A program made the translations under genes and the position numbers. A model generated the notes under the pieces. It made no database searches, was not told where the DNA came from, and saw only the letters and a program-made list of their open reading frames with translations. Positions 9,374 to 34,793 of a stretch of DNA of 36,048 bases are shown one piece after another (the stretch's first letter is position 1; each line of letters starts with the position of its first letter). Origin of the DNA: Rhodospirillaceae bacterium (GTDB lineage: Bacteria; Pseudomonadota; Alphaproteobacteria; Rhodospirillales; JABHCV01); contig JACNJU010000073.1 of NCBI GenBank assembly GCA_014382375.1, positions 1-36,048 of the forward strand, in the 5' to 3' direction.

Positions 9374-10678
9374 ATGAACGCAAAGGCCGCGCTTGATCCC
9401 ATTGAAACAGCATCGCGCGATGAAATCAGCGCCCTGCAACTTGAACGCCTGAAATGGTCAGTCAAGCATGCTTATGACAATGTAGATCATTATAAGAACA
9501 GTTTTGATGAGGCCGGTGTTCACCCAGATGATATTCAGAGCCTGTCCGATCTGCCTAAGTTCCCCTTGAGCCGGAAAAAACATATTCGTGATAACTACCC
9601 CTTTGGCATGTTCGCCGTGCCAAAAGAGCAGGTTATCCGTGTTCATGCTTCCAGTGGCACGACCGGCAATCCGACGGTTGTCGGATACACCAGAAAGGAC
9701 ATCGATACCTGGTCGGATCTGGTCGCCCGCTCACTGCGCGCCGCTGGGGCACATTCGGGGCAGATCGCCCATATCGCCTTTGGCTACGGCCTGCGCACCA
9801 ATGCTTTTGGTTTGCATTACGGTGCCGAGAAGCTGGGTTGCATGGTTATCCCCATGTCCGGCGGCCAGGCCGAAAAACAACTTCAGCTGATCAATGATTT
9901 CAAACCCGATATCGTGATGGTGACACCATCTTATATGTTGTCTTTGGGCGATATGCTTAAGCGCAACGGTATTGATCCTCGCGACACATCAATCAAGATC
10001 GGCATTCATGGGGCCGAACCCTGGACCTATGCCATGCGCGACGAAATCGAACAGTTGTTCGGCATTGACGCCCTGGATATTTACGGCCTTTCGGAAGTCA
10101 TGGGACCCGGCGTTGCTTGTGAATGCGTCGAAGATAAGGACGGCCTGCACATTTGGGAAGATCATTTCTACCCGGAAATCATTGATCCAGAGACCGAAGA
10201 AGTGCTGCCCGATGGTGAGCAGGGTGAACTGGTTTTGACGTCCCTGACCAAAGAAGCCTTGCCGGTGATCCGCTTCCGCACCCGCGATCTGACCCGCCTG
10301 ATGCCTGGAACGGCGCGTTCCATGCGCCGCATGGAACGGGTCGGTGGTCGTTCCGACGACATGCTGATTATCCGCGGTCGCAATGTTTTCCCATCCCAGA
10401 TCGAAGAAGTGATTTTGCAGGACAAACGTCTCTCACCTCATTATTCGCTTGAGGTGACCAGGCATGATCGTATGGAAAACCTGACTGTGTTGGCTGAGGT
10501 CAGGCCAGACGCCGGTGGATTTGGCGAAACCTTCCGCCAGGAAATTTCGGCGGACCTGGCCCGTCGGATCAAACTTTCTGTTGGCTTTTCTGTAAACACC
10601 AAGGTCTTGCCCGTTGACGAAATCGAACGTTCCATGGGCCGCGTCAAGCGCATCATCGATCTAAGGGAAGCGGACTAA
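9374..10678 (+). CDS. paaK: Phenylacetate-CoA ligase
   Basis: A 434-residue AMP-forming ligase that activates phenylacetate with ATP and CoA, the first step of the phenylacetate pathway. It has the PaaK form of the adenylation loop, HASSGTTGNPTVVGYT (91-106), the YGLSEVMGPGVACEC segment, the RTRDLTRL hinge-region motif, GRSDDMLIIRGRNVFPSQIE in the C-terminal domain and the GRVKRIIDLR end. Length is normal. The ATG at 9374 has a GGAGATG site. It stands alone on the plus strand with its own FNR-type promoter, separate from paaFGH; the ring epoxidase genes paaABCDE and paaZ are not in this window. A related aryl-acetate or indoleacetate specificity cannot be excluded. Confidence 0.92.
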   Translation: MNAKAALDPIETASRDEISALQLERLKWSVKHAYDNVDHYKNSFDEAGVHPDDIQSLSDLPKFPLSRKKHIRDNYPFGMFAVPKEQVIRVHASSGTTGNPTVVGYTRKDIDTWSDLVARSLRAAGAHSGQIAHIAFGYGLRTNAFGLHYGAEKLGCMVIPMSGGQAEKQLQLINDFKPDIVMVTPSYMLSLGDMLKRNGIDPRDTSIKIGIHGAEPWTYAMRDEIEQLFGIDALDIYGLSEVMGPGVACECVEDKDGLHIWEDHFYPEIIDPETEEVLPDGEQGELVLTSLTKEALPVIRFRTRDLTRLMPGTARSMRRMERVGGRSDDMLIIRGRNVFPSQIEEVILQDKRLSPHYSLEVTRHDRMENLTVLAEVRPDAGGFGETFRQEISADLARRIKLSVGFSVNTKVLPVDEIERSMGRVKRIIDLREAD

Positions 10679-10702
10679 CGCCGCTTGTTTGGATGATGTA
10701 AT

Positions 10703-10970
10703 GAATATCATGAAAAATGGAACGGCAGTGGATACCCGAAGGGTCTGAAGGGCGAGGAAATTCCTGTCGAGGGACGCATCGCCTTTCTCTGCGCTGTTTT
10801 CGACTCCCTGACATCCGAACGACCCTACAAGAAAACCTGAGCGGTTGAGAAAACCGGCGATTGTATTAAAAAAACGCTGGCAGCAACTCGACCCCGAACT
10901 CGTCGGCCATTTCGAAGATGCCCTGGATAAAACCCTGGAAATTAAAGAGGCTTACGCTGACGAGAGCTGA
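10703..10970 (+). pseudogene. HD-GYP domain remnant (3' end of a c-di-GMP phosphodiesterase-type gene)
   Basis: Starting 25 bp after paaK, the frame reads EYHEKWNGSGYPKGLKGEEI (HEKWNGSGYP is the HD-GYP signature), then PVEGRIAFLCAVFDSLTSER and PYKKT. It is broken by TGA at 10838-10840, where the family normally has a tryptophan. After the stop it continues AVEK and shifts frame at a run of seven A (10868-10874), resuming as KKRWQQLDPELVGHFEDAL and ending at TGA 10968-10970. The N-terminal half, with the HD residues, is missing. This is a truncated, doubly broken gene fragment. It ends just before the 3' end of the intact diguanylate cyclase gene on the other strand. Confidence 0.78.
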
Positions 10971-10984
10971 ATTTGCCGCTCACT

Positions 10985-12385
10985 TTAGTCGCTGATGAAA
11001 CGGAAACCATTCCGTCCACCTTTTTTGACCTTGTACATGGCTTCATCGGCTTTTTTCAAAAGGGCATCACAATCGCTGCCGTCATCAGGATATAAAGCAA
11101 TACCAATGCTTCCGCTGATTTCACCCTTGGCCGTGCCAACCGGATAAGACGCAGAAAGAAACTTCACCATCTTTTGGGCAAACTTACCGACAGAAACCTT
11201 GTCAGTTATATCGCTCAACAAAATTACAAATTCATCGCCACCAATTCTGGCCGCCGTATCGGTTTCGCGAAGATGATCGGAAATTCGGCTTGCAGCTTCA
11301 ATAAGAAGCTGGTCCCCGGCTTCGTGACCCAGGTTATCATTAACCGCCTTGAAACCATCCAGATCAATGAACAGAAGGGCAAATTTCTTTTCTTCCCGAT
11401 GCCCAAGAGCCAATGCAGCTTTGATACGGTCCAGTAAAAGGCCGCGATTAGGAAGCCCGGTCAATCCGTCGTGACTGGCGCTATGGCGAAGCTTTTTCTC
11501 TACCTCCTGGCGCAACACAATCTCTTCGGTTAATTCACGGGTCCTCTCTTCAACTCTTTGCTCCAGGGTTTTGTTAGCCTGATAAAGAGCTGCTACGGCC
11601 TTGTTATGATCCGTAATATCACGGGCCTCAAGCATCAGTTTGGAGCCGGAAACATCATAAGTCGTCACACCCACTTCGACATCAACATACGACTTGCCGA
11701 CACGGACAAGGCGTGACGGAAACAACATTTCCTCCTCGACCAGACTGTCCAGATTTTCAGTAAATATTTCTTCATAATCAGGATGGAACAAGACTGAAAC
11801 ATCCTCACCGATAAAATTTTCGGCATCCTTGGCACCAAGCATGGTGAGGCCAGCTTCATTGATAAAATTGATCTTGCCGTTTTCGCATGTACAGATCAAA
11901 TCAAGGGCATTGTTTACCAGTTTGCGATACCGGGCTTCGCTTCTGCGAATGGCTTCGGATATACGCACCTGATGGGTAACATCACGGGCAAGAATAATCG
12001 TGTAATCACCGCCCAATTCCCGTGCCTTGAACAGGTTGATCTTGACGCCCATCTCGTTACCGTTCATGGCCGTCATTTTGGCAGGGAAAGGTTCGGTTTC
12101 TTCTGCCAGAACATCGAAAAAATTATCGATTGCGGTGGAGTATTCAGGCGCCAGAAATTCCAAAAATGGCTTCCCGACAAGACCGTCCGAGTCACCGTCT
12201 CCTAGTAAGTCGACGGCCACTGAATTTACATTGGTGATAATGCCACTGTCGCAGATGCAGATAATATCCGAAGACATTTCGAGGATTTTCAACAGATTAT
12301 CAACATCGAAACGGGGGCCCCTTACCCGCCTTTCCTGCAGTGGGGCCTCTTCAATCGTTTTATTTGACGAAGAATTTGTCATCAT
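10985..12385 (-). CDS. PAS-PAS-GGDEF diguanylate cyclase
   Basis: A 466-residue soluble protein that should make cyclic di-GMP from GTP. Domains: PAS 1 (about 30-140), PAS 2 (about 150-260), a coiled-coil linker (about 262-300, LYQANKTLEQRVEERTREL) and GGDEF (303-463). The catalytic motif is intact (GGDEF at 382-386 in ARIGGDEFVILL), as are HDGLTGLPNR and the GTP-binding FIDLDGFKAVNDNLGH. The inhibitory I-site RxxD is present as RETD (373-376), so product feedback is expected. No transmembrane segment is seen; the PAS domains sense a cytoplasmic signal of unknown type. The ATG at 12385 is followed by a second ATG; a GGTGAT site precedes it. Single gene next to HD-GYP debris. Confidence 0.93.
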   Translation of the reverse strand: MMTNSSSNKTIEEAPLQERRVRGPRFDVDNLLKILEMSSDIICICDSGIITNVNSVAVDLLGDGDSDGLVGKPFLEFLAPEYSTAIDNFFDVLAEETEPFPAKMTAMNGNEMGVKINLFKARELGGDYTIILARDVTHQVRISEAIRRSEARYRKLVNNALDLICTCENGKINFINEAGLTMLGAKDAENFIGEDVSVLFHPDYEEIFTENLDSLVEEEMLFPSRLVRVGKSYVDVEVGVTTYDVSGSKLMLEARDITDHNKAVAALYQANKTLEQRVEERTRELTEEIVLRQEVEKKLRHSASHDGLTGLPNRGLLLDRIKAALALGHREEKKFALLFIDLDGFKAVNDNLGHEAGDQLLIEAASRISDHLRETDTAARIGGDEFVILLSDITDKVSVGKFAQKMVKFLSASYPVGTAKGEISGSIGIALYPDDGSDCDALLKKADEAMYKVKKGGRNGFRFISD

Positions 12386-12574
12386 TATACGATCACCAAT
12401 ATCACGGGCACCCCTTCATATTGGTTAACCCAACCGGATCAACCGGAATCACAGGATATTCTTATTTCGCCAGATATGTAAGATTTCTTAGCGGCATAGA
12501 AACCATTTTCAGTTTTAATTTTCTTAGTCACCACGACACTGTTATTTTTAAATAAAACTCTGTATTTTAAAATC

Positions 12575-13753
12575 ATGAAACTCATTCCACTTATACTTGC
12601 TTTATTTCTTGCTCTTATCTCGGCTCCGGTTTTTGCCGCCTCTGACGAGGTGATGGAACCCGAGTCGGCCGATACCGGCGACAGCCCGTTAGATTCTGTG
12701 ATGCCTTATGTTCGAAGATATTTAACCCCGGCCAAAAAATTCCTCAACACCGAAGCCCGCGCCCTTAAAAAGTGGATCAACGAAACCTTAAGTGACCCTG
12801 GCGGACAGACACCGCCTAAGGTCGTAATCGAGCTGCCAGCCCCTGCTGCGAAAACCACGCCGACAATAGCCCCCATGCCCGAACAGCCAGAGGAACCCCC
12901 AACGAAGGAACAGGAACCCGATGCGCCCGAACCAAAGGCCGAGATAAAACCGGAGACCCCAATTGTCGTTAACGATAAGGGTGATGAAAAAGTTAAGGAA
13001 GAAAAAAGCCTGCAAGAGCCAGTCCGCGAGGTCCGAAAATTGCTTCCGGGCACACCAAAACCTGAGCGGCCTGTTGAAGTGGCTAAAGCCCAAAAGGTTC
13101 AAAAATCCTCCCCGCCGCCGACACCGACACCTGAAGCTGATGTTCCGATAGCAAATCAGGAAAAACCCGTTTCTATTCCTGTTTCTATTCCCGTCTCTGT
13201 TCCTGTTGTCACCACAGGCCTGTCTCTGGGGCAATCCATGACGTTGGGATCACCTTTTGACGGCAATGACAAAAATTGCATCAGCAAACAAAACGGTTAT
13301 GTGTTTTTCTGCACCAGGGACATCATCTGGCCTGAACACATTCGAAAACTGTTTGATAACGCATCCACTATTCATCGGGAAGCGCAAGCGATCGTCCGAT
13401 ACGACGGAAAAAAACTAACCCATGCCCATGCCCTGTTTTTAACAGCCCGTTTGAAAGAAATTGTCTCCTACACCGAAAAACGTTTCGGTCCACCGCTTGA
13501 GACCCTGCAACGCATCGTCACGCCCTTTGAAGGTCGGCCGAAGAATAACCCGACGCTAATCTGGCGCAAAAATGACACTATTGACGGGAAAATGAAGTCT
13601 ACAACACTCGAAGTCAGGGCTTTTGACGATTCCCGAGGTGGTTTCCCCGACATGGAACATGGAGTGGTCAGGCTTTACGATTCAGAATCGTTGCCAATTT
13701 TCCCGCGTGTCAGCGCCACTGAAATGATGTTGGTAAAACACGCCATAAATTAA
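12575..13753 (+). CDS. Proline-rich periplasmic protein of unknown function
   Basis: A 392-residue exported protein. It has a Sec signal peptide (MKLIPLILALFLALISAPVF, cleavage probably after FAA, about 22), a short N-terminal segment with a helical stretch (VRRYLTPAKKFLNTEARALK), and a long Pro/Glu/Lys-rich linker (about 85-205) ending in the repeat VSIPVSIPVSVPV. A folded C-terminal domain (about 215-392) begins LGSPFDGNDKNCISKQNGYV and contains two cysteines (CISK and FFCT) that could pair. The linker suggests it spans part of the periplasm. I do not recognise the family. The upstream region (12386-12574) is AT-rich; no clear ribosome binding site precedes the ATG. A lone receiver gene follows after 63 bp. 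Confidence 0.75.
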   Translation: MKLIPLILALFLALISAPVFAASDEVMEPESADTGDSPLDSVMPYVRRYLTPAKKFLNTEARALKKWINETLSDPGGQTPPKVVIELPAPAAKTTPTIAPMPEQPEEPPTKEQEPDAPEPKAEIKPETPIVVNDKGDEKVKEEKSLQEPVREVRKLLPGTPKPERPVEVAKAQKVQKSSPPPTPTPEADVPIANQEKPVSIPVSIPVSVPVVTTGLSLGQSMTLGSPFDGNDKNCISKQNGYVFFCTRDIIWPEHIRKLFDNASTIHREAQAIVRYDGKKLTHAHALFLTARLKEIVSYTEKRFGPPLETLQRIVTPFEGRPKNNPTLIWRKNDTIDGKMKSTTLEVRAFDDSRGGFPDMEHGVVRLYDSESLPIFPRVSATEMMLVKHAIN

Positions 13754-13816
13754 TGCTGGAAAGAACAACCATTTTTTTTATTTAATAGAGGCCCTTAAAC
13801 ATTCAGGAGATGGGAT

Positions 13817-14206
13817 TTGAGTGCATCCTTAAATAAAATTCTTCATATCGAGGATGAAGTTGATATTCAGGAAATCACCAAAATGGCTCTTGAAGCCGTC
13901 GGCGGCCTGAACGTCAGAACATGTAGTGATGGCGAGGAAGCATTATCGGTGGCACCCGAATTCGAGCCTGATCTATTTCTGCTCGATGTCATGATGCCAG
14001 GCATGGACGGTCCTGAAACCTTTCAGGCGTTGCAAAAATTACCCGGATTCGAAAACACCCCGGCGATCTTCATGACCGCCAAGGTGATGGAAGCTGAAGT
14101 TGCCCGGTTTAAGGAAATTGGTGCCCTGGGTGTCATTGCCAAACCCTTTGACCCGATGACTCTTAGCGATCAAATCAGGGCTCTCTGGGATGAACGAAAC
14201 GCCTAA
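13817..14206 (+). CDS. Single-domain response regulator (CheY-like receiver)
   Basis: A 129-residue receiver domain without output domain. The acidic pair is E12/D13 (LHIEDE), the phosphoacceptor D57 (LFLLDVMMPGMDG), and the conserved switch residues T87 (IFMTAK) and K109 (IAKPF). It would relay phosphate to or from a partner kinase not present in the window as an intact gene. The start is a TTG at 13817, well supported by AGGAG (13805-13809) seven bases upstream; no in-frame ATG fits. It may be co-transcribed with the proline-rich protein, and it converges on the tolC-like gene. The nearby kinase-like remnants might have been former partners, but this is speculation. Confidence 0.9.
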   Translation: MSASLNKILHIEDEVDIQEITKMALEAVGGLNVRTCSDGEEALSVAPEFEPDLFLLDVMMPGMDGPETFQALQKLPGFENTPAIFMTAKVMEAEVARFKEIGALGVIAKPFDPMTLSDQIRALWDERNA

Positions 14207-14227
14207 GACATCCTTAAGAAAAATGCG

Positions 14228-15661
14228 CTAGTTCTTCATCGCCAAATTCAGGTAACTTGGATTAAGGCGCCCCATGGCCAGAAGCAACTGATAGATAGCC
14301 AGTCGTTCCTCATAGGAGGCGGCGGTGAAGTTTATTTGCGCGTTGGAAACTTCATTTTCCGCATCCAGAACATTGATCACCGTCTCCTTACCCGCTTCGC
14401 GTAATTTTTTACGGGAAACAAATACTTCGGTTGCGATGTTGACGGCATTTTCCAGAAGCTCCAGGCGTGAACGGGCGGTCAACAGGGCCTGCCATGACAG
14501 TTTTACCTGCTCGATAATCTTATCAATGGTCTGGTCGTGGTTGGAGCGACTGGTGCCGTAATCGTAAGCAACCTGGGTTAGGCTTTCACTGGTCGTTAAT
14601 CCGGTAAACAGGTTCCAGTTGGCCTGCAACTGAACTGAATAATCACGCCGCGTCCCCAATGTGCCAGCATTGTGTTTTTCATAGTTTGCAGTGCTGACAA
14701 CATCGACTACCGGGGCATATTCAGACATCACCGTTCGGCGGCGTTCGCGAGTCATCTCAACAGTGACGGCGCTGTTTGAAATGGCCGGGTTCTCCTGAAT
14801 GGCAATTTCAATGGTCTTGTACAGATCACTTGGAATCATTTCCACCGGTGGCACCGGGTCAGTCATCGTTTCAAGATCGGGAACATGATCAAATACCTGA
14901 ATGTAGCGACTGACCGCGTCTTCAAGGGCCCCTTCAAAGGTGACGCGGCGTTCCTTAGCAATCTGCAGGCGGGATTTTGCCTGCAAGACATCAACGGCGA
15001 TACCCGATCCACGTTGCACCCGTTCGTCCTCAAGATTTAGCTGGCGTAAAATCGTCGCTTCATTGCCGTGTGCCAACTGGACAAGGCGGTATTGGCGAAG
15101 CACATCAACATATGTGGCGGTTCCTTCGAACAAGGTGTTCTGAAGGGTGCCCTCCAGGGTGATCAGGGCCAGCGCCTTGTTCAACCGTGCCGTCCTGACT
15201 GTCGAGTGGGTCAGGTAGCCGTTATAGAGATTCTGGGTCAGCGTCAGTCCAACCGTCTGCATCGTTCGCTGCCAGTCTTTTTCAGCCAACCGGGTGGTCG
15301 GGTTATCAATGTGTTGGGGGCCAGCGACAGCGGTCGCTTGCAAGGTTGGCAGATAGCCAGCTTTTGATAACTTGATCCCCTGTTCTGCCGATTGCGTGGA
15401 TGCCTTGCCCGCCTTCACCAATGGATGAAGGTAGATAAAATTGGCAAGTTCCTCTTCCAGCGAAGCAGCCGTTGCAATATACGGCGCGAGCAAAATCGAC
15501 CCTGCAACCATTGCAAGGCAAAAGGACCTTATGGCACCCGAATTTCTGGCACTGCTCACGAGAGAGATGCCCCCTGCTTTTACAAGTCGTGATTCACACA
15601 CGTAAACCATGGTCCTGCCATCACTCAGTTGATCGATCACAGGTGCCCGAAAAGAACGCAT
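14228..15661 (-). CDS. TolC-family outer membrane efflux/secretion protein
   Basis: About 477 residues; an outer-membrane channel partner for type I secretion or efflux. After a signal-like hydrophobic stretch (IRSFCLAMVAGSILLAPYIA, then TAA) comes SLEEELANFIYLHPLVKAGK, the usual TolC start, followed by two outer-membrane-factor repeats (QTVGLTLTQNLYNGYLT, VQLQANWNLFTG) and the typical VLDAENEVSNAQ segment. I start at ATG 15661, which has a GGGAGG site six bases upstream, rather than ATG 15682. This leaves about 40 residues before the signal peptide, unusual for Sec export; a later GTG start is possible. No adjacent ABC exporter or membrane-fusion protein is present. The upstream gap holds the DnaA-box-like cluster. 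Confidence 0.85.
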   Translation of the reverse strand: MRSFRAPVIDQLSDGRTMVYVCESRLVKAGGISLVSSARNSGAIRSFCLAMVAGSILLAPYIATAASLEEELANFIYLHPLVKAGKASTQSAEQGIKLSKAGYLPTLQATAVAGPQHIDNPTTRLAEKDWQRTMQTVGLTLTQNLYNGYLTHSTVRTARLNKALALITLEGTLQNTLFEGTATYVDVLRQYRLVQLAHGNEATILRQLNLEDERVQRGSGIAVDVLQAKSRLQIAKERRVTFEGALEDAVSRYIQVFDHVPDLETMTDPVPPVEMIPSDLYKTIEIAIQENPAISNSAVTVEMTRERRRTVMSEYAPVVDVVSTANYEKHNAGTLGTRRDYSVQLQANWNLFTGLTTSESLTQVAYDYGTSRSNHDQTIDKIIEQVKLSWQALLTARSRLELLENAVNIATEVFVSRKKLREAGKETVINVLDAENEVSNAQINFTAASYEERLAIYQLLLAMGRLNPSYLNLAMKN

Positions 15662-15735
15662 TTTTTGCCTCCCAGGCGACATGCATACGAGTACAAAAAC
15701 TAGGCCGATGGTTTTGGGACATCAATTGGACAAGC

Positions 15736-15795
15736 TGTGGACAAGTTCATACAACTGTTGATAACTAAATATTCACGTGGATAACCTGTGGATAG
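15736..15795 (-). other. Cluster of four DnaA-box-like 9-mers next to AT-rich DNA (possible replication origin element)
   Basis: Read on the minus strand, the 9-mers are CTATCCACA (15787-15795), TTATCCACG (15776-15784), TTATCAACA (15756-15764) and TTGTCCACA (15736-15744). Each differs from the DnaA box TTATCCACA at one base, and all point the same way. Their starts are spaced 20, 20 and 11 bp, close to whole helical turns. A weaker match is at 15725-15733. The following 15830-15893 is strongly AT-rich, like an unwinding element. The gap 15662-15985 contains no gene I can support. It could be oriC, the origin of a second replicon, or a DnaA-controlled promoter. Confidence 0.5.
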
Positions 15796-15985
15796 GTATA
15801 GGCTGCGAAAAAAGCGACCTCAATACAGGAAGAAATATTTCTATATCTTGTGTTTTCTCTATAAAAAACTGGCGAATTTAGTATGATTTTTAGAATCAGG
15901 CGGATTCGCAGAGATTCGATTTCAAATGCAGGTGTGTTTGTTCGTTTTTCCCATCAAAAATCTATCCGCTGGAGCCGGAACTATC

Positions 15986-16306
15986 ATGAAGAAGGTGCTT
16001 GCAGCGGCAATCTTCCTTTCCTTTATGTCTTGGTATGAATTTGGCATGACATCGGTCTCTGCTGAAGTGGCGACAGATATCGTCTGTGTGGACCGGATTA
16101 AATTTATCGAGCGACTCAAACAGAGCTACGGCGAACGCCAGGTCTCAAGGGGCATAAGTTTTAACGGTGTCATGGTCGAAGTGTTTGCCTCTGATGAAGG
16201 CCACTTCACCATTCTGGCGACCCGGCCTGACGGCGTCAGTTGCCTGATCGCCAGTGGTGATGAATGGCAAGCCTCACCCCTGCTGAAAACGGAAATCGGT
16301 ATCTAG
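15986..16306 (+). CDS. Small exported protein of unknown function
   Basis: A 106-residue protein with a Sec signal peptide from ATG 15986 ([20 protein letters not shown], cleavage probably after VSA). The frame is open 20 codons further upstream, but the signal peptide and a GGAG site support this start. The mature part, ~75 residues, contains two cysteines (IVCVDR and [11 protein letters not shown]) that may form a disulfide, with a segment [20 protein letters not shown] and then TRPDG that looks like a small beta fold. I recall similar hypothetical proteins in other alphaproteobacteria but know no function. Its TAG stop overlaps the stop of the convergent 5-oxoprolinase gene within CTAG. 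Confidence 0.72.
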
Positions 16307-19300
16307 GCTTTTCCGTAACCACCACCCCCGGGCGTTTCAATAACGAAAACATCACCTGCTTCGGCTTCAACCTGACCGGTTTCCTGTAAAGCAACATCGT
16401 CACCAGTTGCCCGTTCAAGCCGGTTCAAGCCGCAGGCCCCGGGTTCCCCACCGGCCATGCCGTAGGGTGGAATGCGTCGATGACCCGACAGGATTGCTGC
16501 CGTCATCGGTTCAAGGAAACGCAGCCGTCGAATGGTGCCATCGCCGCCGCGGTGAGCGCCTTTGCCGCCACTGCCCTTACGGATGGTAAAATCCTCCAGC
16601 AGCACCGGGAAACGCCATTCCAGTATTTCAGGATCCGTCAGGCGCGAATTGGTCATGTGGGTATGAACGGCGTCAGTACCGTCAAAATCTGGTCCCGCCC
16701 CGGTGCCCCCGCAAATGGTTTCGTAATACTGATGGCGGTCGTTACCGAAAGTCAGGTTGTTCATGGTTCCTTGCGCTGCAGCCATAACGCCCAAGGCCCC
16801 GTACAAGGTATCGACAACGGCCTGGCTGGTCTCCACATTTCCGGCGACGACTGCCGCAGGATAACTGGGCTTTAGCATACAACCATCTGGGACGATCAGT
16901 TCTATGGGTTTCAGGCAGCCCTCGTTCATGGGAATATCATCATCAACCAGGGTCCGGAAAACATAAAGAACGGCGGCCCGGGTGACCGCCAATGGGGCGT
17001 TGAAATTAGTCATTTGCTGGGTCGCAGTGCCGCTGAAATCAACACGCGCGCTACGGCCTTTCCTATCGATGGAAATGGCGACCTTGATTTCAGCGCCGCT
17101 GTCCATTTCGTAAGTGAACGAGCCGTCTTTCATGACATCCAGAACGCGGCGCACGGATTCTTCGGCATTATCCTGAACATGGCACATGTAGGCCTGGACG
17201 ACGCCCAAACCAAAATGATCAACCATGCGGTTCAGTTCACCCACGCCTTTTTCATTGGCAGCGACCTGGGCCATCAGGTCGGCGATGTTCTGATCGGGAT
17301 TACGCGCCGGATAGGGGCCTGAAGCCAGCAGGTCACGCATTTCCTGCTCCCGGAAGCGGCCCTGTTCGACCAAAAGGAAGTTATCGATGAGGACGCCTTC
17401 TTCTTCGACGCTGGTGCTATCAGGCGGCATCGACCCCGGCGTCACACCGCCGATGTCGGCGTGATGGCCACGCGAGGCAACGAAGAACAGGATCTCTTTG
17501 CCCCTATCGTCGAACATCGGCGTCACCAGGGTGATATCCGGCAGATGGGTGCCGCCATTGTAGGGGGCATTGAGGACGCAGACATCGCCGGCTTTCATTT
17601 CGGCCCCGCGCTCGCGGATCACCGTCCCGACACTTTCGCCCATGGAACCCAGATGAACAGGCATATGGGGTGCGTTGGCGACGAGGCCACCACGCTTATC
17701 AAAAATGGCACACGAGAAATCAAGCCGCTCCTTGATATTGACCGAATAGGCCGTATTGGCCAGAACCGCGCCCATCTGTTCGGCGATCGACATAAACAGA
17801 TTGTTGAAAATTTCCAGCATCACCGGGTCGGCCCCTTCGCCCTCACCAAGGCCAGTACCGATGGCGTTGGCCGCAGGGCGTGGGGTAACGCGACGCAGGA
17901 TCAACTGGCGCTGGGCTGCCGTTTCGGCGCTCCAGCCGGGTTCGACAATGGTCGTCCCGGTCTTCTCGATGATGATCGCCGGGCCACAGACTTCGCTGCC
18001 CGGAGGCATGTTTTCGCGATCATAAACCGGTGCGGGATGGCTTTCCTGAGCGCTGACGAAAGCCGTCATTTCCAACTGTGGTGGTGTATTGGCGCTGGCT
18101 TGCTGAGCTTCCGCAGTCTCACTTGCGGCCGTCTCTGTGCTACCGATTGCCTCAACGGAGAGGGTTTCAACAACCAGCCCGCGCCCCGGCATGACGAACC
18201 CGAAACGCTGTTTGTGAAGGGTTTCAAATGCGTCAGCCATTTCCTGAACGCCCTGATAGTCCACCATCAAGGCGGTATCGGTACCATCGTAACGAATATG
18301 GGCCTTGCGCACGACGCTCACAGCATCACGACTGACCCCCTGACCTTCAATTTCCCGGACCGCTTCGGCTTCCAGATCGGCAAGAACCTGTTTTTGACTG
18401 GCAAGGCCTTCCTCGCCAAGCGGTGTTTCCGCCGAACGTTCACGCATCGCCCGCATTTCGGCAAGCCCCATGCCGTAAGCGGATAACACCCCTGCCAGAG
18501 GATGAACAAACACTGTGCTCATACCCAGCGCGTCAGCAACCAGACAGGCGTGCTGACCGCCGGCCCCGCCAAAACAGCTGAGCGCGTATTCGGTGATATC
18601 ATAACCACGCTGCACCGAAATCTGCTTGATGGCGTTGGCCATGTTTTCAATGGCGATCATCAGGAAGCCTTCGGCGACCTGTTCGGGGGTTCGCTTGTCG
18701 CCGCTCCTGGCTTCAATTTCAGCAGCCAATGCGGTGAAGGCTTCAACAACGGCTTCCCGGTCGAGCGCTTGGTCGGCGCCCGGGCCAAACACATGGGGGA
18801 AAAACCTGGGTTGGATTTTCCCTAGCATGACATTGCAATCGGTAACGGCCAGCGGTCCGCCGCGCCGGTAACTGGCGGGTCCTGGTACCGCGCCCGCACT
18901 GTCCGGGCCAACCCGGTAGCGGGCCCCGTCAAAATGCAAAATAGAGCCGCCACCGGCGGCAACCGTATGGATGCTCATCATCGGGGCACGCATCCGAATA
19001 CCGGCAACCTGTGTTTCAAAGGCGCGCTCGTAGGTGCCGTCAAAATGCGAGACATCCGTCGATGTGCCGCCCATATCAAAGCCGATGACCTTGCCGAAGC
19101 CAGCCTCGCCAGCCGTGCGGACCATACCGACAACACCGCCTGCGGGGCCTGAAAGAATACTGTCCTTACCCTGAAACAGGCGGGCGTCGGTCAGACCACC
19201 GTTGGATTGCATGAACATCAACCGGGTATCGCCCAGATCGGCTGCAACCCGGTCAACATAGCGGCGCAGGATCGGCGACAGGTAAGCATCAACGACGGTG

Positions 19301-19950
19301 GTATCGCCCCGGGAGACAAGTTTGATCAGCGGCGAAACCTGATGGGAAACGGAAACCTGGGCAAAGCCGATCGCGGCGGCCATGGCAGCAACCTTCTTTT
19401 CATGATCGGCAAACCGGTAACCATGCATGAAAACGATGGCCACGGAACGCAAGCCGTCATCGAAAGCGCGTTGTAAATCTGTCTGTACGGTTTCCTCATC
19501 CAGGGCCACAAGCACATCACCGCTGGCGCCGGTTCTTTCATTGACTTCGATAACCCGGGTGTAGAGCATTTCAGGAAGCTGGATATGGCGATCGAACAGG
19601 CGCGGTCGGTTCTGATAACCAATCCGCAGGGCGTCCTTGAAGCCTTTGGTAATCACCAGAATCGTCGGCTCGCCTTTGCGTTCAAGCAAGGCGTTGGTAG
19701 CCACCGTGGTTCCCATCTTGACCGCCTCAATGGCAGCACCCGGAATCGGCTCTTCGGCCTTCAAACCCAGCAGATTGCGCATTCCTTCAAGGGCCGCATC
19801 AGGATAGCGTTCGGGATTTTCCGATAATAATTTATGGGAAAGGATTTTGCCTTCAGGTGTCCGCCCGACAACGTCGGTAAACGTGCCGCCCCGGTCGATC
19901 CAGAACTGCCACCTGTTTTTACCGAGATCAGAATTATTAAAAGAGGGCAC
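16303..19950 (-). CDS. 5-oxoprolinase (ATP-hydrolysing), HyuA-HyuB fusion
   Basis: About 1215 residues, the normal length of the fused enzyme that opens 5-oxoproline (pyroglutamate) to glutamate with ATP; related hydantoinases and acetophenone-type carboxylases share the fold. HyuA part: [20 protein letters not shown] near the N-terminus, [13 protein letters not shown], and the ATPase segment [18 protein letters not shown]. HyuB part (from about residue 710): [40 protein letters not shown] and the C-terminal glycine-rich PGGGGYG. I move the start from the distal ATG (20040) to GTG 19950, because an AGGAG lies seven bases before it and the family starts here. It is divergent from the TRAP operon across 173 bp, which suggests a shared inducer. 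Confidence 0.88.
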
Positions 19951-28758: not shown

Positions 28759-29967
28759 TTAAGCCATCTTGCAGCCGGCAGCAGGATCTTCCAGTGCTTC
28801 GGCGGCAATACCGAGGAGCTTCTGCTGGCCATCAGCAACCTGACGCAGATAGATGTTCTGGATCGGGTTATGGGCCTTCGACATGGCCCACGGACCACGC
28901 GGGCTATCAGGCACCTTCGACGTTTCCATCACATTGATGACATCCGCCGTTGCTTCAACGTCGCCGCCAACAGCGGCTGCGGCCTGCAACAGAAGCGATC
29001 CGGTGTCATAACCCTGAACCGAGAACACGTTCGCACTTGCGCCAAAGGCGGCTTCGTAATCGGCGCGGAACTTGTGATTTGCCTGGTTATCCAGGTTAGA
29101 GGCATAGTGAAGGGTGGTCTTGATGCCGTCAGCGGCGGAACCGGCGGCCTTTTCCACGCCTTCGGTCAGGAAGCCCGGGCCATAGAGCGGAATTTTGTCT
29201 TTAAGTCCGGCAGCTTCGTAGTCTTTCAGGAACTTGGTCGCACCACCGCCCGAGAAGAAGGCGAATACGCAATCGGGCTTCAAGGCAGCGATTTCAGACA
29301 AGTGGGCCTGGAATTCAACGTTCGGGAACGGCAGCAGAATGTCCTTTACGGATTTACCGCCCGTCGTCGCAAAGCCATCACGACCGGCCGCCATCATCTG
29401 GATACCGGCGCCGTATTTCCATGAAATGGTGACGCAGGTCTTATGACCTTCCTTGCCCATCAAGACACCGCCCGGATAGGCAGGCTGCCAGTTGGAGAAC
29501 GAAGTGCGGAAGATGTTGGGCGCGCACAGCGGACCGGTCACCGCGTTGGAACCGGCATTGGGTACGATCATGATCGGTGTTTTGCGCTGACCCATGATTT
29601 TAGCCATAGCCGCAGCAATACCCGAATGAACAGGGCCGACCAGGAAATCAACTTTTTCCTTCTGGATCAGTTTGTTGGTGTTTTGTGGTGCTTTAGGAAC
29701 CGACATTTCACTATCGACGGCGACATAGTCAATGGGGCGTCCGCCCATTCTGCCACCGGCCTGCTCGATACGCATTTTCATGGCGTTGGTGATCGAGTTT
29801 CCAAGCATGGCATAAGTACCTGAATACGGAAGCAAAATACCAACTTTGATCGGCGCCATCGCACCAATGGCAAAACGACTTGGAATAAAGCTGCTGGCTG
29901 CAACCAGACCGGTTGTCGCCGCCGCGCCGGCAATAAAATGACGCCTTGATTTGTTATTTTTACTCAT
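28759..29967 (-). CDS. ABC transporter periplasmic substrate-binding protein, Leu/Ile/Val-type (probable aromatic acid receptor)
   Basis: About 402 residues from ATG 29967 (GGAG site nine bases upstream). The frame is open 54 codons further up, but the signal sequence starts here: MSKNNKSRRHFIAGAAATTG, a twin-arginine-type leader (R8 R9 H F). The mature part begins IKVGILLPYSGTYAMLGNSI, the classic type I periplasmic-binding fold, with FLVGPVHSGIAAAMAKIMGQ and VFSVQGYDTGSLLLQAAAAV further on. In this family, members next to benzoate-CoA ligase genes bind aromatic acids, so a benzoate-type ligand is inferred. The 130-bp gap upstream (29968-30097) may hold its own promoter, but none is clear. 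A terminator follows the gene. Confidence 0.88.
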   Translation of the reverse strand: MSKNNKSRRHFIAGAAATTGLVAASSFIPSRFAIGAMAPIKVGILLPYSGTYAMLGNSITNAMKMRIEQAGGRMGGRPIDYVAVDSEMSVPKAPQNTNKLIQKEKVDFLVGPVHSGIAAAMAKIMGQRKTPIMIVPNAGSNAVTGPLCAPNIFRTSFSNWQPAYPGGVLMGKEGHKTCVTISWKYGAGIQMMAAGRDGFATTGGKSVKDILLPFPNVEFQAHLSEIAALKPDCVFAFFSGGGATKFLKDYEAAGLKDKIPLYGPGFLTEGVEKAAGSAADGIKTTLHYASNLDNQANHKFRADYEAAFGASANVFSVQGYDTGSLLLQAAAAVGGDVEATADVINVMETSKVPDSPRGPWAMSKAHNPIQNIYLRQVADGQQKLLGIAAEALEDPAAGCKMA

Positions 29968-30097
29968 CGTTATAGTCTCCCTTTTCATTCTCCCAGTGGG
30001 TTTATGGTAGCCTATTATTGTCTTTTCAGCACCCCACGACATGAACCTGGGTAAAATCCTATGCGAAGCGAGGGTTGCTGTCACCTTTTCCGACGAT

Positions 30098-30853
30098 TTA
30101 TCGCCAAAAACCTTCCTTGTCAATTTCATGAAGCGCCGCCATTTCTTCGGCGCTGGGTGGTGGCGTTTCGACCATTTGTGGCAAAACCTTCAGATTCCAG
30201 CCTGTTTTTTCCTGAACCTCCTCGACACTGTGACCCTGGTGAAGCGAGGCCAGATGCATCTCGTTGTCCGGCCCGTAAGGTCTCAGGATGGCCAGGTCAG
30301 TAATAATCGCCGAAGGGCCGCCTTTCAGGCCTGCTGTGGCTCTACTGTCACCGCCGTCCAGATATCCAGGCGAGGTCACGAAATCGACTTTTTCTACCAA
30401 TCGGCGTTGCTCATGGTTGATAATCACCAGCAACCGCTTCGACATCGCGGCAATGTCAGCGGCGCCGCCGGAGCCCGGCAATTTGATCTTTGGATTGTTA
30501 AAGTCACCGATATAGGACGTATTGACATTGCCGTACCGGTCAACCTCTGCCCCGCCAATGAACCCGGCATCGACCCGGCCACGCTGCAATTGGCTCATCA
30601 CCGGGATCAGGCCGGTCGTCCAGGCGGCATTCAACTGGTTTGGCGGGTCGCCCATGGTATAGAGCATATCGGTGGCTGGCGCGTAGCGGGCGACCCCGCA
30701 CTCAAACAGGCCGACGGCGTCCGGCGCGTGGGTCAACCGCGCGACGCCGTAGGCGGTGATCGGCAGGCGCATTCCGACAAACACCAGCTCACCGTCCTTT
30801 ATTTCACGGGCCGAAGCGATAATCATCAGTTCCTGAATGGAATAATCAGTCAT
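30098..30853 (-). CDS. CoA-transferase subunit B, glutaconate/3-oxoadipate CoA-transferase type
   Basis: A 251-residue beta subunit of a class I CoA-transferase, cytoplasmic, pairing with the preceding gene. The segment VGLFECGVARY puts Glu51 where these enzymes keep the glutamate that carries the acyl-CoA thioester, close to E54 of glutaconate CoA-transferase B. Other family traits: RVDAGFIGGAEVDRYGNVNT, KLPGSGGAADIAAMSKRLLV and VDFVTSPGYLDGG. Related IpdAB ring-cleaving hydrolases share the fold but, as I recall, lack this glutamate, so transferase activity is favoured. It starts three bases after the subunit A stop. Likely substrates are 3-oxoadipate and succinyl-CoA, or an aromatic acid; the sequence does not decide. 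Confidence 0.78.
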   Translation of the reverse strand: MTDYSIQELMIIASAREIKDGELVFVGMRLPITAYGVARLTHAPDAVGLFECGVARYAPATDMLYTMGDPPNQLNAAWTTGLIPVMSQLQRGRVDAGFIGGAEVDRYGNVNTSYIGDFNNPKIKLPGSGGAADIAAMSKRLLVIINHEQRRLVEKVDFVTSPGYLDGGDSRATAGLKGGPSAIITDLAILRPYGPDNEMHLASLHQGHSVEEVQEKTGWNLKVLPQMVETPPPSAEEMAALHEIDKEGFWR

Positions 30854-30856
30854 TGC

Positions 30857-31780
30857 CTATCCCGCCGCGTAATTGGTTGGGGCGGCCAGGTTTGAACCGG
30901 TGATGCGCAGGTCTTCCAGTTGGGAACCCAGTTTTTGACAATACGCTGCGTGATCTTCAACACCCAAAATCCATTCCTGCAGCCATTTATCAAAGCCTTC
31001 TACGCTCCGGCTTTCGGCATGATAATCGCCGAAGAACGCATTATCGCGCTTCCAGCAACCGGTTTGCGGCGACGGATGGGCGGCGGCGGGCACATGGCAC
31101 ACGGCGCTCACCAGATAACCCGGCACAAGGACCCTGCTGGGGTCAGAAGCGATGACCCCGGGCTCAACAATTTCATTGGCCAGCACAATGACGTTTTCGG
31201 CGGCCAGGGCGGCTTCCTGGACGACCCCCCGGCTACCCCAATGATGGTTATTGCCAAAAACATCGGCGCGTTGAACCACAACAACGGCGACATCAGGCAC
31301 CAACGGCGGCACCAGGATGACCGGTTCCCTGTCGTCAGAAAAAGGGTTTTCAGCCATCATCATATCCGGGTTGGACTTTGTGATATCGGAACCCAAAATC
31401 GAGCGTATGGGTGCGTAAGGCATACCGTAAGCCCCGGCCATCAAGGCCATGGCGATGGAAAAATTTGAATGATCGTGTAGTTTGACCGCCGCTGCGTCGG
31501 GATCTTCGAAAGCCCGTCGATAGTTGTGACCAAGACCACCCGAAACATTGCCAACCCAGGCCCCGGTTACCTCATTACAGCATCCGGCACCGATCAGCAT
31601 ATCCGTTGAAGCATCGGATATGGGGGCGATGACGTTCAGGCCCTTGATCCCCTGACGGATAATCTCGTGGGTCGCGGCAAACGGCACATCCGGCTCAAGA
31701 ACCGCACCCAGAACCACCGAACTGTTCGCGACAACAAAACGGGCGATGGCGTCTTTTAGAGGTAAGATTTTTTTCTTCAT
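30857..31780 (-). CDS. CoA-transferase subunit A, glutaconate/3-oxoadipate CoA-transferase type
   Basis: A 307-residue alpha subunit. Family landmarks: LKDAIARFVVANSSVVLGAV at the N-terminus, AATHEIIRQGIKGLNVIAPI, MLIGAGCCNEVTGAWVGNVS and DVAVVVVQRADVFGNNHHWG with a following AAENVIVLANEIVEP. It binds CoA and, with subunit B, exchanges it between carboxylic acids. The ATG at 31780 overlaps the benzoate-CoA ligase stop by four bases (ATGA), and subunit B follows three bases after its stop, so ligase, A and B are translationally coupled. This placement ties it to benzoate catabolism. Confidence 0.78.
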   Translation of the reverse strand: MKKKILPLKDAIARFVVANSSVVLGAVLEPDVPFAATHEIIRQGIKGLNVIAPISDASTDMLIGAGCCNEVTGAWVGNVSGGLGHNYRRAFEDPDAAAVKLHDHSNFSIAMALMAGAYGMPYAPIRSILGSDITKSNPDMMMAENPFSDDREPVILVPPLVPDVAVVVVQRADVFGNNHHWGSRGVVQEAALAAENVIVLANEIVEPGVIASDPSRVLVPGYLVSAVCHVPAAAHPSPQTGCWKRDNAFFGDYHAESRSVEGFDKWLQEWILGVEDHAAYCQKLGSQLEDLRITGSNLAAPTNYAAG

Positions 31781-33345
31781 CCGCGCAACTTAAAGCGTTG
31801 GATTTTGCCGGTCGCCGTTTTCGGCAGGTCTTCGACAAAGTTAAACCAGCGTGGATATTTATACTTGGCAAGCCCGCCCTTGCAGTGGGCCAGCAATTCA
31901 TCGGACATCGCCTCACCGGCGTCAGTCGCGTCGTTCAGGACAACAAAGGCTTCCGGCTTGATCAGGTTATCCGCGTCGGCGCGACCGACCACTGCGGCTT
32001 CCAGCACCTTGGGATGTTCGATCAGCTTGGCCTCGATCTCGAAGGGCGAACACCAGATACCACCAACTTTAAGCATGTCGTCATTGCGGCCGCAGTAGTG
32101 GAAGTAGCCGTCTTCATCCAGAATGTAGGTATCACCCGTATCAAGCCAGCCATCGACCATGGTTTCGGCTGTTTTATCCGGATTGTTCCAGTAATATTTG
32201 GCCGTCGAACCGCCGCGAATGATCAAACGGCCACTGTCCCCGACCGCACACTCATCCCTGTTCTCATCAATAATCCTGGCCGCGTAACCGGGCACGACAC
32301 GACCGCTGGTGCCCGGATTAAAATCGCCAAGAATGTTGGAGATAAAAATATGCAAGGCCTCGGTCGAGCCAATACCGTCAAGAATGACGGTGCCGGTCTT
32401 TTCCTGCCAGCGACGGAAAATATCGGCTGGCAATGCTTCCCCCGCTGACACACAGGCCCTGAGCGAGGACAGGTCCTTGTCCTCTTTTTCAAGCAGCCTT
32501 AATTGCGCCGCATACAGGGTCGGGACGCCGAAATAAACTGTCGGTTTGAATTTTTCGATGACATCGAAGGTACTGTCAGGGGTGGGCGGTCCGGGCAGTA
32601 GAACTGTCGATGCACCAAGCCAAAGCGGAAATGTCATGCCATTACCAAGGCCGTAGGCAAAGAACAGCTTGGCCGCCGAAAAACAAACATCGTCCTCGCC
32701 GAGGCCCAGCATATTGGCGGCGTAGTGTTCGCTGGTTTCGACCATGTCCCGATGCGCATGGACAGCCCCTTTTGGGGTGCCGGTGGTGCCCGATGAATAG
32801 AGCCAGAAACAATCATCATCGGCGCTGGCCGGTGCCGCCTCCAAATCGTCCGACGCATTCACCATCATTTGCGACAATGTGTCCGTCAGGAAGGTCTGCT
32901 CTGGTTTGCGAGATGCATTTTCCAGCGCCGGTTCTACTTCGCCTGCAAATTCCGGTGAATAGAGGAGCCCGGCGCAGCCGGAATCCTCAATCATGAACTG
33001 ATAGTCCTTGGCCCTGAGCAGGGTGTTGATGGGAACAGGAACGATCCCCGCCTTGATAGCACCCCAAAACCCGTAGAAGAATTCCGGGCAGTCCTTGACC
33101 ATCATCAGCAACCGCTCGCCCTTGCCAATGCCAAGTCCCAGCAACGTGTTCCCGGCCCGGTTAACATTTTCCGCCAATGCGCCGTACGTGACCGTCTCAC
33201 CTGTGGCACTGCGGATAATGATCTTGTCGGCGCGACCTTGTTCAAGATGACGGTCGATAAAGGACGGCGCCACATTAAACGTCGGCGCGTAAGTTATCGT
33301 CGCCGGTGTCGTTGATTTATCTATGGAGACTGTGTGATCACGCAT
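31777..33345 (-). CDS. Benzoate-CoA ligase family protein
   Basis: A 522-residue AMP-forming ligase, the usual length for benzoate-CoA ligase (BclA/BadA). It activates benzoate to benzoyl-CoA with ATP. Motifs: adenylation loop YSSGTTGTPKGAVHAH (183-198), GIGSTEALHIFISN (aromatic-type A5 motif), GWLDTGDTYILDEDGYFHYC, GRNDDMLKVGGIWCSPFEIE, and the C-terminal lysine K514 in TATGKIQRFKLRG, the residue that GNAT enzymes acetylate in related ligases. The ATG at 33345 has a GGAG site. It starts 11 bp after boxB and overlaps the CoA-transferase A gene. A 4-hydroxybenzoate or aminobenzoate preference is possible, but boxB and boxC beside it favour benzoate. Confidence 0.92.
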   Translation of the reverse strand: MRDHTVSIDKSTTPATITYAPTFNVAPSFIDRHLEQGRADKIIIRSATGETVTYGALAENVNRAGNTLLGLGIGKGERLLMMVKDCPEFFYGFWGAIKAGIVPVPINTLLRAKDYQFMIEDSGCAGLLYSPEFAGEVEPALENASRKPEQTFLTDTLSQMMVNASDDLEAAPASADDDCFWLYSSGTTGTPKGAVHAHRDMVETSEHYAANMLGLGEDDVCFSAAKLFFAYGLGNGMTFPLWLGASTVLLPGPPTPDSTFDVIEKFKPTVYFGVPTLYAAQLRLLEKEDKDLSSLRACVSAGEALPADIFRRWQEKTGTVILDGIGSTEALHIFISNILGDFNPGTSGRVVPGYAARIIDENRDECAVGDSGRLIIRGGSTAKYYWNNPDKTAETMVDGWLDTGDTYILDEDGYFHYCGRNDDMLKVGGIWCSPFEIEAKLIEHPKVLEAAVVGRADADNLIKPEAFVVLNDATDAGEAMSDELLAHCKGGLAKYKYPRWFNFVEDLPKTATGKIQRFKLRG

Positions 33346-33356
33346 CTCGATGCTCC

Positions 33357-34772
33357 TTAGTTAAAGCGGACGTATTCGAAATCTCCCGGTTGGCCGTTGA
33401 TACCCTTGGCGGGCGGGGCGATCCAGGGAGCGTACTTGCCGGGTTCGGTGACCGCCTTCATCAAGGATGTAACATACTCCCGGTCAGCATCGGTTGGCAG
33501 CCACTGCCCATGCTGGTGGTCCCAGTCGGCCTCGGTAATGATGCGTCCGTCCGGCGTCGCCTTGACGGTCGAGAACGATCCTATGCCACGATGGAAAGCA
33601 CGGCTGGGCAAGGTAATTTTAAAATCGATACCGGCCCCGGCGATAATCTTGTTCCACTTGTCGACGCCGCGCTGGCAGTCATGGATATAATCATCACGCA
33701 AGCGTTCGTTAACCGCCGTCAGGGCATTTTGATCGGTGAAGATGATCCCTTCCCCCCTGACTTCGGCAACCTGATAAGGATTGTCACCCAGCAAGTGATC
33801 GTCGTCGATTTTGGTTTCCTGGTAACGTCCCTTAAGGCCCATGGTGTAGTAGTTGGCGGCGTTGGTGGAAATTTCCTGACCGAACAGGTCGACCGACACA
33901 CTGAAATGGAAATTGACGTATTTCTGAATCGTCTCAAGGTCGATGCCGCCATGTTTCCTGACATCGTCAGTCTTGTATTCAGTCATCAACTGGCAGGCCC
34001 GGGCAATAACACGACCGACGCCGGTTTCGCCGACAAACATATGATGGGCTTCTTCTGTGAGCATAAAACGACAGGTTCGCGATAGCGGATCGAAACCGGA
34101 TTCCGCCAGTGAGGCGAGCTGATATTTTCCATCCCGGTCGGTAAAGTATGTGAACATGAAAAACGACAACCAGTCCGGCGTCTTTTCGTTAAAGGCTTCA
34201 AGAATGCGCGGCTTGTCGGCATCACCGGAATGGCGTTCCAGCATGGCCTCCGCTTCCTCGCGACCATCGCGGCCAAAATGGGCGTGTAGAAGATAGACCA
34301 TGGCCCACAGGTGACGGCCTTCCTCGACGTTGACCTGAAACAAATTGCGCAGGTCATAAAGCGACGGACAGGTCAGGCCAAGATGGCGCTGCTGTTCAAC
34401 CGAAGCCGGTTCCGTATCGCCCTGCGTGACAATCAGGCGGCGCAGTTCGGAACGGTATTCACCGGGAATTTCCTGCCAAGCCGGTTCACCCTTGTGGGCA
34501 CCAAAATTAATCAGACGGCCTTCTTCGGCAGGCGCCAGAAAAATGCCCCACCGGTATTCAGGCATTTTGACATACCCGTAATTGGCCCAGCCGCCGGGTT
34601 CCACACTGATCGCCGTGCGCAGGAAGACATCCATGTTCTGGCTTTCTTCAGGGCCCAGTTCAGCCCACCATTTCTGATAGCCCGGTTGCCATTTCTCGAG
34701 CGCCCGTTGCAAGCGGCGATCGTCATTCAGGTTGACGTTGTTCGGGATCTTTTCCTGATAATCAATACTCAT
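33357..34772 (-). CDS. boxB: Benzoyl-CoA 2,3-epoxidase subunit B
   Basis: About 471 residues, as usual for BoxB, the diiron oxygenase component that forms the 2,3-epoxide of benzoyl-CoA with electrons from BoxA. The ligand set matches in spacing that described for BoxB: E121, E151 and H154 (VEEGRHLWAMVY), D212, E241 and H244 (LTEEAHHMFVGE), so the centre should be intact. Other conserved stretches are RTAISVEPGGWANYGYVKMP and RWGIFLAP. Start at ATG 34772 (TTG 34775 precedes it); the ribosome binding site is weak (AGAG). It is 21 bp downstream of boxC. boxA is not in the window and presumably lies beyond the right end or elsewhere. Confidence 0.95.
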   Translation of the reverse strand: MSIDYQEKIPNNVNLNDDRRLQRALEKWQPGYQKWWAELGPEESQNMDVFLRTAISVEPGGWANYGYVKMPEYRWGIFLAPAEEGRLINFGAHKGEPAWQEIPGEYRSELRRLIVTQGDTEPASVEQQRHLGLTCPSLYDLRNLFQVNVEEGRHLWAMVYLLHAHFGRDGREEAEAMLERHSGDADKPRILEAFNEKTPDWLSFFMFTYFTDRDGKYQLASLAESGFDPLSRTCRFMLTEEAHHMFVGETGVGRVIARACQLMTEYKTDDVRKHGGIDLETIQKYVNFHFSVSVDLFGQEISTNAANYYTMGLKGRYQETKIDDDHLLGDNPYQVAEVRGEGIIFTDQNALTAVNERLRDDYIHDCQRGVDKWNKIIAGAGIDFKITLPSRAFHRGIGSFSTVKATPDGRIITEADWDHQHGQWLPTDADREYVTSLMKAVTEPGKYAPWIAPPAKGINGQPGDFEYVRFN

Positions 34773-34793
34773 CAAATTTCTCTTTCAGCCTTG

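Follow-up and report, generated by a model that had tools for sequence, protein, structure and literature searches.

Does a tight array of DnaA boxes beside AT-rich DNA mark a replication origin when it lies between the gene of a TolC-type outer membrane protein and that of a small exported one, or does it serve another role? The locus lies in a window of 36,048 nucleotides, the whole stretch of DNA analyzed here, which is the entire contig C23 of a 3.30-Mb draft genome (G000; 205 contigs) and is not joined to any other contig of it. The presence of GcrA, of a CcrM-like enzyme, and of the hemE locus suggests that the host is an alphaproteobacterium. A sequence-only reading of the window had offered three explanations: an oriC moved by rearrangement, the origin of a secondary replicon, and a DnaA-regulated promoter. 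The third survived as the most probable.

The DnaA-box array and its surroundings

The four 9-mers that the sequence-only reading had placed in a single orientation, each one mismatch from TTATCCACA, were found on the minus strand at exactly the starts and the 20/20/11-bp spacing claimed, and the weaker match, the AT-rich tract, and the reported neighbors (a PF02321 outer membrane efflux protein, a small signal-peptide-like protein, and a hydantoinase/oxoprolinase) were likewise present (Table 1). With the weak box included, start-to-start distances are 11, 20, 20, and 11 bp, a symmetric layout in which 2-bp gaps separate the boxes at 15776 and 15787 and those at 15725 and 15736. The tandem spacing of 2 or 3 bp typical of double boxes is clear for the first pair and holds for the second only with a three-mismatch partner; both spacings are the same in a genome of the same genus, G001. 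Helical phasing alone was not accepted as proof.

Table 1. Features in and around the noncoding gap that holds the array (positions in the window; G001 is the relative of the same genus)
Feature	Position	Strand	Remarks
TolC-type outer membrane protein gene	14228..15559	-	PF02321; GTG start at 15559 gives 443 amino acids, same length in G001
Candidate tolC control region	15640..15740		Two blocks (about 15640-15685 and 15700-15735) near-identical in G001 by sliding identity
Weak DnaA-like box TTGTCCAAT	15725..15733	-	Three mismatches; 2 bp from the 15736 box; identical in G001
DnaA box TTGTCCACA	15736..15744	-	One mismatch; perfect TTATCCACA in G001
DnaA box TTATCAACA	15756..15764	-	One mismatch; reads TTACCCACA in the reconstructed G001 site, into which an IS630-like element has inserted
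DnaA box TTATCCACG	15776..15784	-	One mismatch; same in G001
DnaA box CTATCCACA	15787..15795	-	One mismatch; double box with 15776 (2 bp); CCATCCACA in G001, two mismatches
AT-rich tract	15830..15893		15 G/C in 64 bases
TATGAT, candidate -10 of the small exported protein gene	15882..15887	+	Read from the sequence; identical in G001; no -35 seen
Three GANTC motifs	15893, 15903, 15913 (15893..15917)		Possible CcrM/GcrA sites; first two kept in G001
Small exported protein gene	15986..16306	+	ATG at 15986; 106 amino acids; signal-peptide-like N terminus

The four-box cluster is real and beyond chance. The total of one-mismatch boxes in the window is unremarkable, nine (five of them outside the cluster) against a shuffle mean of 5.4, with 12 of 100 shuffles reaching nine, and no box in the window is better than one mismatch from the consensus. 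At the box rate of the window itself, 6e-8 clusters of four same-strand boxes within 60 bp are expected per window and 5e-6 per genome; the genome-wide rate gives 2e-7 per window and 1.6e-5 per genome. When positions 15683-15925 were shuffled 20,000 times with dinucleotides preserved, the maximum was two boxes (53 times) and no shuffle reached three. Genome-wide, 595 one-mismatch boxes (265 + 330) were counted, compared to 323 matches to the reversed pattern. A search for further clusters, one of the checks proposed at the outset, found same-strand TTNTCNACA pairs no more than 30 bp apart at four places in the genome and none for the reversed pattern; this cluster is among the four, as is window position 12286. 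By chance, about 0.1 pairs of one-mismatch boxes on the same strand and 2 or 3 bp apart are expected in this genome.

Likely start codons (GTG at 15559 and ATG at 15986) leave a noncoding gap at 15560-15985 between divergent genes, with the DnaA boxes upstream of both. The TolC-type protein scored 220.5 bits with TIGR01844, just below the cutoff of 225.15. The small exported protein had no Pfam or NCBIfam match; relatives occur in 17 of 40 genomes, its own included, and the family is present in multiple copies in certain genomes of the order (L020 and others). No relatives of this protein were confirmed in the genome_contigs collection, and none of the oxoprolinase in viral_contigs. A promoter and terminator consensus scan of 15500-16050 returned neither a consensus sigma-70 promoter nor a terminator, and folding of the 5' leader was no better than that of shuffled sequences (z 0.16). 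The sole Rfam match in 14000-17000, to MS2, was taken as chance, at 17.1 bits against a gathering score of 40. Farther along the window, at 28759-34775, genes for a benzoate-CoA ligase family protein and BoxB (benzoyl-CoA epoxidase) lie near branched-chain-type ABC transporter and CoA-transferase genes, and this region probably serves aerobic benzoate degradation.

Candidate replication origins in the genome

Of special interest for the origin question is the hemE locus. In this genome hemE is on contig C62, where a gap at L057:8697-9170 (C62:26696-27169) separates it from a gene for a PF03618 kinase/pyrophosphorylase, a family we take to be COG1806/DUF299; hemH-, rho-, and mnmE-like genes, as read from translations, follow hemE. 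The gap is 36.9% GC and contains eight TCCCC/GGGGA motifs where 0.35 are expected; TCCCCA-type sites are weak DnaA sites in Caulobacter. Cumulative GC skew computed on all 82,886 bases of C62 fell to its lowest point at 27140, within this gap, before rising by 788. In the window, by the same calculation, skew drifted down to its lowest value at the last base (36047) with only seven small dips, each followed by a rise of between 21 and 74. The dip that precedes the cluster starts at 13525 and climbs 46 by position 16200; its minimum lies away from the cluster, and a larger dip exists elsewhere. Run on C62 and the window, the skew check that the sequence-only reading had called for placed a minimum in the hemE gap and none at the cluster.

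The same region was compared across 30 hemE loci, G000 included, with five further matches above the cutoff left out. At least one one-mismatch box was present in the 520 bp before the match at 29 of them. In these loci, which are roughly 4 kb long (one is 2.9 kb) with the hemE start near position 1501, the skew minimum fell within 1142-1896 in 21 cases and elsewhere in 9. The origins of Caulobacter and Rickettsia are reported to lie between hemE and COG1806 (PMC1914354). Like such alphaproteobacterial origins of the Caulobacter Cori type, the window cluster combines several DnaA boxes with adjacent AT-rich DNA; it differs in its flanks, which are the PF02321 gene and the small protein gene rather than hemE or COG1806, and in the absence of a skew minimum at the site. 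The better candidate is the hemE gap, and the chromosomal origin most likely sits there, away from the cluster, judging by the flanking genes and skew of that one contig.

That the cluster is the chromosomal origin, moved by rearrangement, is thus contradicted by an intact hemE/PF03618 gap that encloses the skew minimum of its contig. Besides the pairing of boxes with AT-rich DNA, a moved origin would explain why the hemE gap of G000 has a single one-mismatch box and lacks exact motifs for CtrA and IHF. It would also have to accommodate the small skew dips of the window, where the nearest running minimum is at 13525, and an insertion sequence inside the cluster of G001, and we regard it as extremely improbable. 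Since CtrA motifs (TTAA-N7-TTAA), TTAACC, and the exact IHF consensus were absent from the cluster gap and from the hemE gap alike, these motifs give no means of telling the two apart. Boxes can form a convincing, origin-like cluster away from oriC, and the call of an origin depends here on which genes flank the site and on its skew rather than on the number of boxes.

An origin belonging to a secondary replicon or an integrated element would suit the box cluster with its AT-rich tract and a contig that is not joined to any other. Among the 32 window proteins scanned for families (smaller and overlapping open reading frames were left out), none belonged to a replication or partition family, and those with a family match look catabolic, transport related, or regulatory. 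The window has no major skew turn. In G001, alignments to the flanks cover 10001-15763 and 15761-19911, the latter on a 120-kb contig. The exact-spacing pattern occurred in no stretch of viral_contigs and none of genome_contigs, collections that may omit near relatives. With the insertion sequence in the G001 cluster added, the proposal of a secondary-replicon origin found no support and is very unlikely.

Conservation of the gap and the insertion in G001

Across 40 surveyed genomes, G000 included, the gap was found only in G000 and G001. In G001 it is split, with 15683-15758 matching the end of contig C36 and 15761-15952 matching the start of C12. Copies 100% identical to the additional sequence that opens C12 are found at the starts of C11 and C21, the pattern that a repeat at an assembly break should give. 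The 42-amino-acid end of a reading frame in this sequence had no Pfam match; similar translations occur in five plasmid records, of which two carry the annotation IS630 family transposase. All three copies share GGGGTATA and then diverge, and duplication of a TA target is the habit of IS630 elements. We infer that the insert is an IS630-like multicopy element with TA as its duplicated target, and that C36 and C12 are adjacent in G001.

The G001 empty site reconstructed with a TA target equals the corresponding stretch of the window in length and keeps all boxes in register, reading in order TTGTCCAAT, TTATCCACA, TTACCCACA, TTATCCACG, and CCATCCACA. The four main boxes there carry 0, 1, 1, and 2 mismatches and retain the 20/20/11 spacing; the second, at 15756, has changed at two positions and is still one mismatch from the consensus. 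A four-base target would make the site two bases longer and break both the second box and the register. Alignment of the gap in relatives, another of the checks proposed at the outset, thus showed the 9-mers in register in the reconstructed site of one relative, although the cluster is split by the insertion sequence in G001 itself. Because of that split, the full array seems dispensable there.

Gap identity between G000 and G001 is 82 to 87%, compared to 64 to 72% at third codon positions of three flanking genes. Higher conservation of the boxes themselves had no statistical support: 41 of 45 box bases and 29 of 37 spacer bases are identical (P = 0.13), and comparison with the rest of the gap gave a P value of 0.20.

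The array as a candidate regulatory site

The spacing of the array has a parallel in Escherichia coli, where DnaA in vivo is reported to bind mainly box pairs 2 or 3 bp apart (PMC11317965); double boxes occur there at purH, polA, and other genes. Tandem spacing of 2 bp is seen twice in this array, which differs in being a series of five sites at 11/20/20/11 and in having a weak partner box, with three mismatches, at 15725. In Caulobacter crescentus, DnaA is described as activating gcrA and mipZ (one box each), ftsZ (two boxes), and hdaA (up to six) (PMC3193534). As at those promoters, the boxes here are upstream of genes; those targets are cell cycle genes, whereas the candidate targets here encode the TolC-type and small exported proteins.

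As in Caulobacter, DnaA, GcrA, and a CcrM-like enzyme are all encoded by the host genome. DnaA has the helix-turn-helix domain PF08299. GcrA matched PF07750 above the cutoff and scored 89.6 with the NCBIfam equivalog model, whose cutoff is 280. The CcrM-like enzyme is a RAMA-domain methylase, a family that among 14 control genomes was matched only by Caulobacter. With GcrA and this methylase present, the three GANTC motifs within 25 bp near the start of the small gene are a weak sign of a GcrA/CcrM promoter; one other such trio occurred in the 152,935 bases of this genome examined. DNA bound by GcrA in Caulobacter is reported to be rich in GANTC (PMC3667746).

Upstream of gcrA, TGTGGATA, which has eight of the nine DnaA-box bases, is invariant in all six aligned genomes (G000 to G005) while its flanks vary; in G000 the region is at L059:10071-10177. 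The gcrA start was located by motif in five of the six genomes, and in G004 it is visible only in the alignment. The box lies 186 to 216 bp before gcrA in G001, G002, G003, and G005, and 326 bp before it in G000, where a repeat intervenes. This dispersed repeat of about 107 bp (L059:10327-10433) has diverged copies at several places in G001, G003, and G004. The conserved box suggests that in this genome's family, as in Caulobacter, DnaA is linked to gcrA. Its direction relative to gcrA is the direction of the cluster boxes relative to the small exported protein gene, and the box at 15787 is 199 bp before that gene. The likeness in direction and distance is suggestive only.

On balance, the cluster is probably a DnaA-binding regulatory site between the divergent TolC-type and small exported protein genes, a reading that we hold with moderate confidence. 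It draws on a cluster beyond chance, on the 20/20/11 register kept in the reconstructed G001 site, on a gap more conserved as a whole than flanking third codon positions, on 2-bp pair spacing as in E. coli, on the DnaA-activated genes of Caulobacter together with the conserved box before gcrA, and on the presence of DnaA, GcrA, and the RAMA-domain methylase. DnaA binding at the cluster and an effect on transcription are both predicted. DnaA would occupy the two box pairs and the central box as a phased array on one helix face, and the bound protein would act as a switch on one promoter or on both, so that expression follows the replication cycle. The GANTC motifs beside the candidate -10 element of the small gene, a weaker hint, may provide a second input through CcrM and GcrA.

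Several observations weigh against such a regulatory site: no consensus sigma-70 promoter was found in 15500-16050, the boxes are not conserved significantly better than the spacers or other parts of the gap, the box at 15787 is weaker in G001, and the region occurs in 2 of 40 genomes, in one of which an insertion sequence splits the cluster. Neither a TolC-type gene nor a gene for the small exported protein was found among the DnaA targets named in the literature consulted. Narrow searches likewise found no link between DnaA boxes and TolC promoters, which does not imply its absence in print.

DnaA-box clusters in Bacillus subtilis are an example of sites that titrate DnaA or switch its nucleotide state. 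The main rival explanation is that this cluster is such a site, similar to datA or DARS, and tunes replication timing without mainly controlling its neighbors. The genome-wide excess of one-mismatch boxes is consistent with this role, and a nonessential function fits the insertion in G001. A cluster of several boxes outside oriC is also what datA (five boxes) and DARS1 (three) present; datA and DARS2 use IHF, and DARS1 is reported to need no protein factor (PMC4585315). The exact IHF consensus WATCAANNNNTTR is absent from both strands of 15562-15985, which distinguishes the cluster from datA and DARS2 and does not count against DARS1. The conserved blocks reach beyond the boxes, which also argues against titration. 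E. coli boxes are reported to gather near the origin (PMC12371093), whereas the cluster, in an assembly of 205 contigs, may lie at any distance from oriC. A titration or nucleotide-switch site is credible but, in our judgment, unlikely.

Sites of some other regulator, whose tandem motif resembles TTATCCACA by chance, would explain why no box in the window matches the consensus exactly and why some flanking blocks are conserved equally with the boxes. The changes in G001 speak against this: the first box there is the perfect consensus, and the second, though altered at two positions, has stayed one mismatch off. The 2-bp pair spacing also fits DnaA, and we consider another regulator distinctly improbable.

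If the cluster is a DnaA-binding regulatory site, a more elaborate scheme can be put forward tentatively, and we consider it unlikely: DnaA on the symmetric 11/20/20/11 array and GcrA on methylated GANTC would form a two-input cell cycle switch, by which an outer membrane export channel and a small periplasmic protein would be expressed in time with replication, with the array broken by an insertion sequence in one relative. Such a switch, if true, would have a target class outside the DnaA targets found in the consulted literature. The split array of G001 offers a natural comparison. Should DnaA act at this cluster, two envelope genes would be tied to the initiation of replication in a lineage with Caulobacter-like cell cycle regulators.
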